Source of the DNA: Marinihelvus fidelis
GTDB lineage: Bacteria > Pseudomonadota > Gammaproteobacteria > Xanthomonadales > SZUA-36
Length of the DNA stretch: 64,000 nucleotides
Direction: 5' to 3'
NCBI RefSeq assembly: GCF_008725655.1
Contig: NZ_VYXP01000003.1
Span: 1-64,000 of the forward strand
Position 1 is the first letter of the stretch. Each line of letters begins with the position of its first letter. Both the position numbers and the translations under genes were made by a program. Shown in pieces: positions 57,422 through 61,214 of the stretch. The notes below the pieces were generated by a model, which saw only the letters and a list, made by a program, of their open reading frames with translations, ran no database searches and was not told the DNA's origin.

Positions 57422-58270
57422 ATGACGGGGCCCACGGTGCCGGGTTGTGTCGACGATGATGTGCTGCGCGCGCTGGCCGAGGACATCGGCGACGGCGACC
57501 TGACCGCCGCCCTGGTCCCCACCGGTACGCGGCTGCGCACCCGTGTCATCATCCGTGAACCCGCCGTGCTGGCCGGACGGCCCTGGTTCGATGCCGTATT
57601 CCGCCACCTTGACGGCGATGTGGCCATTGACTGGCGCGTTGATGATGGCGATGCCCTGTCCCCGGACCAGGTGCTGTGCGAGCTCGACGGCGACGCCCGC
57701 ACACTGCTCAGCGGCGAACGCACCGCACTGAACTTCATCCAGACCCTCTCGTCCGCGGCCACGCTGACGCGCGCCTACGTGGAACGCGTCGCCGGCACCG
57801 GCGCGGTGATCCTGGACACCCGCAAGACTGTGCCCGGCCTGCGCCTGGCGCAGAAGTACGCGGTCCGCTGCGGCGGTGGGCAGAATCACCGCATCGGGCT
57901 GTTCGACGCCATCCTGGTGAAGGAAAACCACATCAGCGCGGCCGGCTCAATCACCGCCGCGGTGGAGCGTGCCCGCGCCACCACCCGCGATGTGCTGGTC
58001 GAAGTGGAAGTCGAGACCCTGGCGCAACTCGACGAGGCCTGCCGTGGCGGCGCCGACCGCGCCTTGCTCGACAATTTCGGTTTGGACAACCTGTCCGCGG
58101 CGGTCGCCGCCCACGGCGGCGATATCCAGCTCGAGGCGTCCGGCAACATCACCCTGGACAGCATCCGCGAGGTCGCCGAAACCGGCGTGGATTTCATCTC
58201 CACCGGCGCCATCACCAAGCACGTCCGGGCCATCGACTTTTCCATGCGATACATCGGGGAAACGCCATGA
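57422..58270 (+). CDS. nadC: Quinolinate phosphoribosyltransferase
   Basis: A 282-aa decarboxylating enzyme that joins quinolinate to PRPP giving nicotinate mononucleotide in de novo NAD synthesis. Substrate-binding motifs are DTRKTVPGLRLAQKYAVRCG, GGGQNHRIGLFDAILVKENH, EVEVETLAQLDEA and LEASGNITLDSIREVA. The start is 2 nt after the Trm112-like stop. The end overlaps the next gene by ATGA, so all three genes are probably one operon. Confidence 0.96.
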   Translation: MTGPTVPGCVDDDVLRALAEDIGDGDLTAALVPTGTRLRTRVIIREPAVLAGRPWFDAVFRHLDGDVAIDWRVDDGDALSPDQVLCELDGDARTLLSGERTALNFIQTLSSAATLTRAYVERVAGTGAVILDTRKTVPGLRLAQKYAVRCGGGQNHRIGLFDAILVKENHISAAGSITAAVERARATTRDVLVEVEVETLAQLDEACRGGADRALLDNFGLDNLSAAVAAHGGDIQLEASGNITLDSIREVAETGVDFISTGAITKHVRAIDFSMRYIGETP

Positions 58271-59316
58271 TCAAGCACGCCCTGGCCGCCATTGCGCCGG
58301 CCCTCGCCCTGCTGGCCGTCACCACGGCGGCGACCACCCAGGATGACGCGCCGAAACCGGCGAAGATTTTCACCACTGACAACGTGCTCGCGGTGACCAT
58401 CAAGGGCCCCTGGCGCACCATTGGCCGCAACAAGAATTCCGGCGAGGAATGGCAGGGTGAGTTCAGTTACAGTGCCGATGGCGCCACGGTTACCCTCCCG
58501 GTGTCACTGCGGGCCCGGGGCCTGACCCGGCTGGATGTCTGCGACTTTCCGCCGCTACGGATCGGCTTCGACAAGCAGGCCTCGAAAGGCACGACGTTTC
58601 GTGGCGCCGGTAACCTGAAGCTGGTCACCCACTGCCTGAAGCAGGAAAAGTACCAGGCCTACCCGGTCAAGGAATACCTGGCCTACCGCATCTACAACCA
58701 GGTCACCGAGCTGAGCTACCGGGTCCAGGGCATGGACATCCGCTACATCGACACGGAAACCGGCCGCGAGACCGAGCGTTTCGGCTTCCTGATCGAGGAC
58801 CCGGACGACGTCGCCAAGCGCAATGGGCTGCTCAAGCTGGATATTGAGGGCACCATCCCACCGGCGCTGGATGCCGATGAGACCTCGCTGTTCATGGTCT
58901 TCCAGTACCTGATTTCCAACCTCGACTGGTCAGTACTGGGCGGCCCGGACGAATACTGCTGTCACAACGCCAGGCTGGCCGGCAAGGCGATCGATGAGCG
59001 GCCGGTCTACGCCCTGCCCTATGATTTCGATTCCTCGGGTTTTGTCGACGCGCACTACGCCTCGCCGCCGGACGGCCTGCGGGTCCGCAACCTGCGCCAG
59101 CGCCTGTTCCGTGGTTTTTGCATGCATAACGACGCGGTGCCCGGCGCGGTGCAGGCCATTCGCGAGCAGCGCGAGGCCATCATGGCCATGGTGAACAACG
59201 AGCCACGGCTGGACGGCCGCAGCATGGACAGCGCCGTGCGCTTCCTGGACAGTTTCTTTGAGCGCGTCGACAGCGCCGACGGCATCGCCTCGCTTACCGA
59301 CAGTTGTCGGGGCTGA
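58267..59316 (+). CDS. Secreted CotH-like (kinase-fold) protein
   Basis: A 349-aa exported protein with a signal peptide (AIAPALALLAVTTAATTQ). From about residue 130 it follows a CotH-kinase-like plan: VKEYLAYRIYNQVTELSYRV, RFGFLIEDPDDVAKRNG, YLISNLDWSVLGG with a following HN, and LPYDFDSSGFVDAHY. CotH proteins in Bacillus spores are secretory-pathway-type protein kinases. The similarity is recognised by pattern, not by a search, so the function stays provisional. Two paired Cys residues (YCCHN) are notable. It overlaps nadC by ATGA and the convergent phosphatase gene by 23 nt. Confidence 0.65.
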   Translation: MIKHALAAIAPALALLAVTTAATTQDDAPKPAKIFTTDNVLAVTIKGPWRTIGRNKNSGEEWQGEFSYSADGATVTLPVSLRARGLTRLDVCDFPPLRIGFDKQASKGTTFRGAGNLKLVTHCLKQEKYQAYPVKEYLAYRIYNQVTELSYRVQGMDIRYIDTETGRETERFGFLIEDPDDVAKRNGLLKLDIEGTIPPALDADETSLFMVFQYLISNLDWSVLGGPDEYCCHNARLAGKAIDERPVYALPYDFDSSGFVDAHYASPPDGLRVRNLRQRLFRGFCMHNDAVPGAVQAIREQREAIMAMVNNEPRLDGRSMDSAVRFLDSFFERVDSADGIASLTDSCRG

Positions 59317-60541
59317 GCCAGGCCTCGAGCTGCACCGCCTCGGCATCTTCGGGGTCGACCGCCGGCGCCGCCGCGGCCTCGCCGCTACTGCTGGACGCGG
59401 CCGATTGCAACTTCTGCAGCCTGGATTGCAGGTGCGCGTTGGCCGGGTTCATGGCCACGACGCGTTGCAGGTACCCCAACCGTTCGTCGTTGCCCACAGG
59501 TAACGGCAATTCGCCCCCCGGGTAATGCGCGATGGCGCCGCCATCGACCAGTTCCAGGAACGCCACGTGGCCCCCGTAATGGTCGGCGATGCCGGTGTCA
59601 TTCAGAACCACCCGGCCATCGAAGCGCGGCCAGACCACCCCCTGGGTCGGCGTGTGGCCAACGACGATACGGGCCACGCCATAGCGTTCAAGAATGGCGT
59701 CCAGCATGGGCCCGCGCTGTACTTCCGAATCCGTGGCCAGCCCGCGGTACCACAGCGGCCCCAGCTCATCGGTGGCGATGCCCGGCTTGCTGTAATCGAA
59801 ATCGGCGAGTTCCGCGTGCACATCGCGCGTGTAGTCCGCCAGTTCCAGCTGGCAGTACTTGGCGCTGAGGCCGCCGTGCAGGAACAGCGTGTCATTCACC
59901 CGCAGCACCACCGGCGCCGCCAGCACGCGCTGGCCGTACTCACCCTGCGCGGACCAGGCCTGGCGATGCTCCACCCAGCCCAAAGGATGCTCCTTCTCCC
60001 AGTCCTTGCGGAACGCCTTCAGGTCCAGGCCTTCCACCGACGACGGGTCGCGCGCGGCCATGGTCTCGACATGATGCTCGAACTGCAGGTCCTGGTAGCG
60101 CTTCGAGTTGCGCGTTTCGAACTCGGCGTACTCGCCGGGCGTGACGTAGCGCAGGTCGCCATAAACATTCATGGCCTCGTGGTTACCGATCAGCAAGTGC
60201 ACGCGGCCGCCGTCATCGGCCGCCTGGCCCTGCAATTCGACCAGGTGATCGATAATTCGCCGCGTGTCGGGGCCCCGGTCCGGAATATCGCCGGTCTGGA
60301 CCAGGTGGGTGGCGCCGCCTGTCCAGCGGTCCCGGCGGTCGACCAGTCCGGCCAGTTGCATGACCCGCATGTACTGGTCGTAGTCGCCGTGCAGGTCACC
60401 GATGGCGACGACACGCTCGACCCCTTCCCAGTGATAGTCACCCACCTTGCGTGCCTCGGCGAACGCCGCGGCAGACAACAGGCCGGCGAGCGCCGCGAAG
60501 GCCAGCATCGCCGTGACTGCGCCAAATGGTGATCGTTTCAT
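59294..60541 (-). CDS. Secreted Shewanella-like PPP-family phosphatase
   Basis: A 415-aa metallophosphoesterase with a signal peptide (AALAGLLSAAAFAEA). Metal-site motifs in PPP order are IGDLHGDYDQY, VQTGDIPDRGPDTR, LIGNHEAMNVYGD, LFLHGGLSAKY and VVGHTPTQGVVWPRF. This is the Shelph-type layout, related to protein Ser/Thr or Tyr phosphatases. The signal peptide places it in the periplasm or outside. A tail rich in Ser/Ala/Glu follows. It lies 13 nt after the DUF4956 gene and is convergent with the CotH-like gene. Confidence 0.88.
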   Translation of the reverse strand: MKRSPFGAVTAMLAFAALAGLLSAAAFAEARKVGDYHWEGVERVVAIGDLHGDYDQYMRVMQLAGLVDRRDRWTGGATHLVQTGDIPDRGPDTRRIIDHLVELQGQAADDGGRVHLLIGNHEAMNVYGDLRYVTPGEYAEFETRNSKRYQDLQFEHHVETMAARDPSSVEGLDLKAFRKDWEKEHPLGWVEHRQAWSAQGEYGQRVLAAPVVLRVNDTLFLHGGLSAKYCQLELADYTRDVHAELADFDYSKPGIATDELGPLWYRGLATDSEVQRGPMLDAILERYGVARIVVGHTPTQGVVWPRFDGRVVLNDTGIADHYGGHVAFLELVDGGAIAHYPGGELPLPVGNDERLGYLQRVVAMNPANAHLQSRLQKLQSAASSSSGEAAAAPAVDPEDAEAVQLEAWLSPDNCR

Positions 60542-60554
60542 GCCTGCCTCCGTG

Positions 60555-61214
60555 TTATTCGAAGATGCCCGGGTCCTGCTCTTCCTCGCTGCGCGAGCGC
60601 CGCATATAGGTCTTGGCCTCGTCGTAGCCGCCGTAGTTCACCGTCCACAGCACCAGGAAGACGTAATTGAAAATCAGGGTCATGATGGCGGCGATCATGA
60701 GCATGCCGATGCCGGCCGCCAGGCCGACACCCACGCTGAGGAAAATGAACACCGAGTCCGCCGTTGACTTCATCGTATTGCGGAACCGCACGCCGGCCAC
60801 AACGCCGGTCAGGCTGAAGGCCAGCGCCAGGCTGTTGTGTACCATCAGCACGATGCCGGTGATCGCGATTGGCAGCACGATCATGGTCTCGAGCAGGGAC
60901 TGGTCGAGCTTAGAGCGCCGCCGCACCGCCATGTAGACCCAGGACACCGGCAGCATGATGGCGATCGCCCCGAGGATGGCCACCGTCAGCCACAGCAGGC
61001 CACCGAACTCCGTGTTGACGTTGGAGGCGTGAATCTGCACGCCGATAAAGCCGGTCGGGTCATCCTCCTGGCTGATCAGGTTCTCGATCACGCCCAGCGG
61101 CAGGTGGTCATGCAGGTCGGGGACGAAGTAATACCCGACCAGCAGCAGCACGGCCCAGAAGGCATAGTAGGCGGTCAGGCGGATGAACAGGTTGATGTCG
61201 CGCAATTCACGCAT
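60555..61214 (-). CDS. DUF4956 membrane protein
   Basis: A 219-aa inner-membrane protein with about five helices: LTAYYAFWAVLLLVGYYFV, LLWLTVAILGAIAIMLPVSW, LLETMIVLPIAITGIVLMVH and two more. The DUF4956 signature is SLALAFSLTGVVAGVRFRNTMKS, with conserved Arg and Lys, followed by SVFIFLSVGVGLAAGIG. The family is often encoded near CotH-type and VTC-type (polyphosphate polymerase-like) genes. Its function is unknown. It is probably cotranscribed with the phosphatase gene. Confidence 0.85.
   Translation of the reverse strand: MRELRDINLFIRLTAYYAFWAVLLLVGYYFVPDLHDHLPLGVIENLISQEDDPTGFIGVQIHASNVNTEFGGLLWLTVAILGAIAIMLPVSWVYMAVRRRSKLDQSLLETMIVLPIAITGIVLMVHNSLALAFSLTGVVAGVRFRNTMKSTADSVFIFLSVGVGLAAGIGMLMIAAIMTLIFNYVFLVLWTVNYGGYDEAKTYMRRSRSEEEQDPGIFE

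Follow-up and report, generated by a model that had tools for sequence, protein, structure and literature searches.

A conserved gene trio encoding a CotH-like protein, a Shelph-type phosphatase and a DUF4956 membrane protein in Marinihelvus fidelis and other Proteobacteria

How exported kinases could function where ATP is not known to be available is a general question, and three neighbouring genes of the gammaproteobacterium Marinihelvus fidelis bear on it: do they belong together, and could their products add phosphate outside the cytoplasm and remove it again? They occupy positions 58267-61214 of the 64,000-nucleotide stretch analysed here (contig NZ_VYXP01000003.1, positions 1 to 64,000; the window) and encode a CotH-like exported protein with a predicted kinase fold (58267-59316, plus strand, 349 amino acids), an exported Shelph-type phosphatase of the PPP family (59294-60541, minus strand, 415 amino acids) and a DUF4956 membrane protein (60555-61214, minus strand, 219 amino acids). 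An earlier reading of the window, hereafter the original prediction, had described three genes whose facing coding ends share 23 nucleotides, and had proposed either a phosphorylation-dephosphorylation circuit or a phosphate-polymer system. The open reading frame (ORF) calls agree with every detail of this layout. The CotH-like and phosphatase frames share positions 59294-59316 (23 nucleotides, both stop codons counted), and 13 nucleotides separate the phosphatase gene from that of DUF4956. The GC content at the third codon position is 0.85, 0.83 and 0.90 for the CotH-like, phosphatase and DUF4956 frames, respectively, and values of 0.83-0.90 led us to take all three as coding.

We propose, with roughly even confidence, that the three genes make up one envelope module composed of an atypical exported kinase, an opposing phosphatase and a DUF4956 protein that supports the kinase. 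The CotH-like protein would leave the cytoplasm, be stabilised by disulphides and phosphorylate, as an atypical kinase, a protein or surface glycan of the envelope, while the exported phosphatase would take the phosphate off again. The inner-membrane DUF4956 protein would support the kinase, possibly by supplying an extracytoplasmic phosphate donor or by linking the kinase to the export of its substrate. Such a conserved trio suggests a route for the addition and removal of phosphate outside the cytoplasm in many Proteobacteria. CotH kinases, Shelph phosphatases and the pairing of CotH with DUF4956 are already known; for a CotH-like/phosphatase/DUF4956 module, or for this cysteine-rich CotH-like family, we found no description in the open literature searched, outside which most subscription papers lie; DUF4956 is mentioned there in three papers.

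Linkage and co-occurrence of the three genes

A scan of public genomes confirmed 170 CotH-like candidates, of which the best 80 loci were kept; all counts of loci out of 80 refer to this set. The partner genes were found with hmmsearch, using profiles built from relatives, and some of the loci are cut by contig ends. The phosphatase gene is present in 66 loci, the DUF4956 gene in 45, and 38 contain all three genes. The order seen in the window, CotH-like> <phosphatase <DUF4956, recurs in 19 loci, one of them with a second CotH-like copy, followed by phosphatase> CotH-like> <DUF4956 (13 loci), DUF4956> CotH-like> <phosphatase (three), DUF4956> phosphatase> CotH-like> (two) and a single divergent case. 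On the tree of the 80 CotH-like proteins, at least four changes are required to account for these five orders among the 38 complete loci, and therefore the genes of the module stayed linked through rearrangement. Furthermore, 40 of 47 convergent CotH-like/phosphatase pairs overlap, 20 of the 47 by exactly 23 nucleotides (the list held 48 entries, from which locus L128, with a divergent phosphatase, was left out). The recurrence of the layout and of the 23-nucleotide overlap in relatives indicates that the arrangement is more than chance.

The carriers include Gammaproteobacteria of the Lysobacterales type, Wenzhouxiangella, Hyphomonadaceae, Parvularculaceae, Sphingomonas, Erythrobacteraceae and Sphingomicrobium. 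The module thus spans the Alpha- and Gammaproteobacteria and is at least as varied in the former. The whole module, or part of it, is found in the culturable genera Sphingomonas, Qipengyuania, Erythrobacter and Sphingomicrobium, so that a compact and widespread module makes the question of exported kinases testable in culturable hosts.

The same association appears when genomes instead of loci are counted. For this purpose, a phosphatase was taken as orthologous at E < 1e-85 among relatives and at E < 1e-100 in a phylum-wide set. The CotH-like search of 101 genomes gave 37 with relatives, reduced to 36 once G056 (E 2e-4, three internal stops) was dropped. Within the family of the window (39 genomes), 33 carry the CotH-like gene and 36 the orthologous phosphatase, all 33 among them (Fisher p 0.002), and the 101 genomes together comprise 35 with both genes, one with only the CotH-like gene, four with only the phosphatase and 61 with neither (p 2e-21); both p-values are too small because the genomes are related. 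DUF4956 is present in 25 of the 33 CotH-like carriers of the family; among the six family genomes lacking the CotH-like gene it is found only in G033, where it is of a different type and lies beside VTC. In the 62 genomes outside the family, the CotH-like gene occurs in three (G042, G090 and G095), and these three are also the ones with DUF4956. Of 398 genomes sampled across the phylum, two (M. fidelis itself and G345) have the CotH-like family, and strong matches to the orthologous phosphatase and to this type of DUF4956 come from the same two, with the genes adjacent in both. Weaker DUF4956 matches were seen in four more of the 398, and a wider phosphatase profile reached 143 of them at E <= 0.001, mostly through short, weak matches to other PPPs.

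That the three genes are chance neighbours with unrelated roles is very improbable. Each partner can indeed be missing, but the linkage survives several rearrangements and two classes. Co-occurrence beyond chance, on which the original prediction depended, is thus borne out by 66 of 80 loci, by all 33 family carriers and by the same two of 398 genomes.

Predicted identities of the proteins

The CotH-like protein has no meaningful match by sequence to Pfam, NCBIfam or PDB, so that its name is based on its predicted structure and on its relatives. The CotH model of Pfam, PF08757, finds nothing in the whole M. fidelis genome, and the protein does not match it even at E <= 1. An AlphaFold2 model built from 25 aligned sequences reached a mean predicted local distance difference test (pLDDT) of 84 and a predicted template modelling score (pTM) of 0.83. 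When this predicted model was compared with PDB by Foldseek, the Bacillus cereus CotH kinase (5jd9 and 5jda) came out on top with E 2.2e-10 and 2.8e-10, and nothing besides CotH kinase fell below 0.001. Structural alignment with VIA-align gave a Z of 19.3 to 5jd9, with a root-mean-square deviation of 3.4 over 270 aligned residues; the runners-up were Helicobacter CtkA (12.8), PI4KII (12.2), HipT (about 11) and Fam20 (about 10-11). The Fam20-type secretory kinases also combine a kinase-like fold with export, but they are structurally clearly further away than CotH.

At the level of sequence, the link to CotH is faint. A search of PDB sequences with the profile of the family found nothing, Fam20 included. 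With hhalign, 25 relatives aligned to 11 CotH domains recognised by Pfam gave a probability of 0.6%, and 49 relatives one of 6.7% over 67 columns; a relaxed local run returned a full-length colinear alignment with a weak P of 0.017, and the global run collapsed to 4 columns. Only five of the 49 family members match PF08757 at E <= 1, and one of them, from L128, clears its gathering score of 23.8 bits, reaching 27.9 bits over the catalytic region. Proof of CotH membership from sequence therefore failed, and the identity was decided by the structure model: we call the protein CotH-like on the basis of the fold match and this faint link, and do not file it as a member of PF08757. The window protein is thus predicted to have the CotH fold, although it does not reach the PF08757 gathering score, and a family missed by current annotation gains a putative structural identity.

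The catalytic residues are intact. Among 49 CotH-like sequences, E136, N218, H233, N234, D253 and D255 are each invariant, D220 is kept in 48 (Glu in one) and K118 in 46 (Arg in two, Pro in one). In the model, K118 sits on a strand that is followed by the helix bearing E136, and the secondary structure suggests that they are the strand-3 lysine and helix-C glutamate pair of kinases. The catalytic-loop region (residues 218-234, positions 58918-58968, plus strand) comprises N218, D220, C231, C232, H233 and N234, and the metal-Asp region (residues 253-255, 59023-59031, plus strand), with D253 and D255, corresponds to PWDYD of CotH. D220, N234 and D253 fall in register with the CotH catalytic region, both in the weak local hhalign alignment and in the Pfam match of L128. 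According to the accessible text of PMC12189002, CotH retains counterparts of D166, N171 and D184 of PKA, and the part of PMC7821199 available to us describes the Bacillus subtilis CotH variant D228Q as catalytically inactive. From the predicted fold and this residue set we infer that the CotH-like protein may be an active kinase. That it is instead a pseudokinase or has a structural role, and that the phosphatase serves other targets, we consider improbable. The absence of any Pfam or NCBIfam match, as well as the Asp to Glu change in one relative, would fit such a protein, but the catalytic set is nearly invariant over 49 divergent sequences, and a dead enzyme would not need it.

Six cysteines are also conserved (Cys 92, 123, 285 and 347 in all 49 sequences, Cys 231 and 232 in 48). 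The protein opens with a signal-peptide-like stretch (about residues 1-24, positions 58267-58338, plus strand) recognised by hydropathy and an AxA-like check, and 46 of the 49 relatives have signal-like starts by a simple hydropathy test that had no control set. Cysteines and starts together fit a disulphide-bonded, exported protein. Hence, while the predicted fold and the Asp/Asn/Asp catalytic set are shared with the Bacillus CotH kinase, the window protein differs from it in its six near-invariant cysteines and in an insertion containing CCHN in the catalytic loop; its gene, moreover, is linked to a phosphatase gene, and no coat protein gene accompanies it in the window.

The phosphatase matches PF00149 with 50.1 bits (cut-off 21.5). 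Among PDB entries, phmmer ranked the Shewanella enzymes 2z72, 1v73 and 2zbm first (E 1e-36 to 1e-37; 5.6e-37 for 2z72/1v73), followed by 5vjv, a Rhizobiales-like phosphatase, at E 1e-4; its closest solved relatives carry the names protein-tyrosine-phosphatase or psychrophilic phosphatase I. The bacterial PPP motifs GDXHG, GDXXDRG and GNH(E/D), as defined in PMC535813 in the part accessible to us, are read in the protein as GDLHG (residues 48-52, 60386-60400), GDIPDRG (residues 84-90, 60272-60292) and GNHE (residues 119-122, 60176-60187), all on the minus strand. For the fourth, (I/L/V)D(S/T)G, it has NDTG, in which Asp, Thr and Gly are present and the first position differs. The same accessible part reports the Shewanella phosphatase as Tyr-specific and states that specificity is unpredictable. 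Signal-like starts were seen in 29 of 30 phosphatase relatives by the simple hydropathy test. In its motifs and best PDB matches the enzyme resembles the Shelphs (2z72, 1v73), and it stands apart from them in its apparent export and in the linkage of its gene to a CotH-like one.

The third protein exceeds the PF16316 cut-off (33.6 bits against 30.6), its match covering only positions 3-109 of the 169 of the profile. Its AlphaFold2 model (pLDDT 79, pTM 0.76) has about six long predicted helices (2-30, 69-97, 105-124, 129-147, 151-169 and 172-191) and an unfolded tail. No Foldseek match to the model fell below E 0.78. The best VIA-align rows were MATE transporters, with a Z of 8.7 over 134 residues, which is within the range usual for helical proteins, and no conclusion on transport was drawn from it.

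The identities given in the original prediction therefore stand: the CotH-like one through the Foldseek and Z values obtained on a predicted model, the Shelph-type one through the phmmer matches and motifs, DUF4956 through its gathering score, and the secretion of the first two through the signal-like starts of their relatives. The lack of CotH similarity, which had been named beforehand as the outcome that would speak against the idea, is not what emerged, CotH being the best structural match.

Proposed function of the module and rival explanations

Pfam-recognised CotH, DUF4956 and VTC occur together in four loci (two in G136, one each in G210 and G218; VTC 94.7-125.9 bits), and in G269 a CotH gene (26.0 bits) adjoins DUF4956. 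In streptococci and clostridia, the pel cluster has genes for CotH, a polyphosphate polymerase, DUF4956 and DUF4832 as its neighbours, with a variant in bifidobacteria, as stated in the available part of PMC7112168. The claim that DUF4956 neighbours CotH or VTC elsewhere is thus well founded (G136, G210, G218, G269, G033 and that paper). The CotH + VTC + DUF4956 module shares with our locus a CotH-fold protein linked to DUF4956; the window locus differs from it in having a Shelph phosphatase in place of VTC, and its 219-residue DUF4956 protein is predicted to carry an additional helix and loop at the N-terminus and to lack a folded domain at the C-terminus. Comparison of loci with VTC and loci with the phosphatase indicates that the pair of CotH-fold protein and DUF4956 occurs in two settings, and these dissimilar contexts both link the uncharacterised DUF4956 to CotH-fold proteins. 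If DUF4956 had a donor role, this would explain its company with CotH-fold proteins both beside VTC and beside the phosphatase. We advance only tentatively the fuller version of our proposal, namely a dedicated, reversible extracytoplasmic writer/eraser circuit in Gram-negatives in which DUF4956 would be the membrane component delivering the donor.

The same neighbourhoods could point to a polyphosphate system, in which an anionic polymer would be handled by DUF4956 and modified or trimmed by the two other proteins. In its favour, five other loci (L143 and L163-L166) combine DUF4956 with a VTC domain, and in Sphingomonas alba DUF4956 is followed by a gene for polyphosphate kinase 2 (284.6 bits; L112:9705-10613). 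Nevertheless, VTC is absent from the M. fidelis genome and present in just one of the 101 genomes of relatives, G033, which has no CotH-like gene, and polyphosphate kinase 2 lies beside DUF4956 in few loci, without a recurrent cluster of at least five. We regard this explanation as having a small chance, and the phosphate-polymer alternative of the original prediction, in so far as it works through VTC, is disfavoured.

The best rival to an envelope module acting as kinase and phosphatase is a role in surface polysaccharide: the CotH-like enzyme would phosphorylate an exopolysaccharide, a lipid or a nucleotide instead of a protein, and the module would tune a surface polysaccharide, as in streptococcal pel. 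Besides the gene neighbourhood beside pel in PMC7112168, the accessible part of PMC12345266 reports that deletion of the CotH-like SIR_1594 of Streptococcus intermedius lowers Pel, that deletion of SIR_1592, a transmembrane protein with an ACT domain, raises it, and that each deletion loses more than 50% of aggregation in 10% ASM. The equation of SIR_1592 with DUF4956, however, is our own reading, and the name does not appear in that part of the paper. PI4KII folds rank just after CotH and CtkA in the structural comparison, which would suit a non-protein target. Against this role, no polysaccharide genes, pel included, adjoin the module in the window, where Pfam identifies nadC, Trm112 and moeA-type neighbours, and none are among the recurrent neighbours of the family. 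We judge it unlikely on balance.

Several observations weigh against our proposal of a kinase-phosphatase module. The phosphate donor is its weakest point, and ATP is not known to occur in the periplasm. Kinase folds may also act on lipids, sugars or nucleotides, and PI4KII and HipA/HipT align with the model at Z 11-12. The evidence for CotH at the level of sequence is weak, as seen in the hhalign and PF08757 scores. The partners are separable: seven of the 80 loci have DUF4956 without the phosphatase, 28 the phosphatase without DUF4956 and seven neither, three genomes of the family contain the phosphatase but lack the CotH-like gene, and the nearest relative (G001) has intact CotH-like and phosphatase genes and no DUF4956. 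The cluster contains no recurrent substrate gene, and the other recurrent neighbours of the gammaproteobacterial loci are housekeeping genes. Finally, GDLEG replaces GDLHG in six of 30 aligned phosphatases (L100, L108, L116, L120, L123 and L127), a change of a metal-binding His to Glu, so that members need not all share one metal site.

Surroundings of the locus and further observations

The start codon of the CotH-like gene overlaps the stop codon of nadC in an ATGA (58267-58270), and the gene may thus be co-translated with a housekeeping operon (a Trm112-like gene and nadC). Around the module, Pfam recognises QPRTase (nadC), Trm112 and MoeA. No PADLOC model for a defence system matched at E <= 0.1, and no Rfam match to an RNA element was obtained. 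The promoter scan gave one site against 0.6 expected and the terminator scan three against 2.2, with nothing usable. Two tblastn queries found no relative on plasmids. A propeller gene near the relatives of the window was seen in none of 46 genomes, a set without a positive control, so that this result shows little.

A fourth gene is present in 22 of the 80 loci, mostly alphaproteobacterial. It encodes an exported-looking protein of about 280 amino acids (for example, L103:9042-9866) and stands, in the loci inspected, between the other genes and DUF4956. The cut-off of the Pfam family SdiA-regulated was passed by two of three such proteins tested, and no mention of CotH paired with SdiA-regulated was found in the open literature searched.

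Some minor observations concern individual genes. The 23-nucleotide overlap encodes the conserved C-terminal Cys-Arg-Gly of the CotH-like protein and, on the opposite strand, the end of the phosphatase. Some relatives (G026 and others) have up to six CotH-like genes per genome, several of them away from the phosphatase gene. In G033, the phosphatase locus has no CotH-like gene, and the DUF4956 gene of the other type has a gene for a VTC polyphosphate polymerase as its neighbour (L143:7987-9621). Locus L140 has, as judged by eye, the same arrangement with polyphosphate kinase 2 as L112. In G001, where no DUF4956 was found, a remnant beside moeA (L031:6923-6982) still matches roughly the 20 C-terminal residues of that protein.

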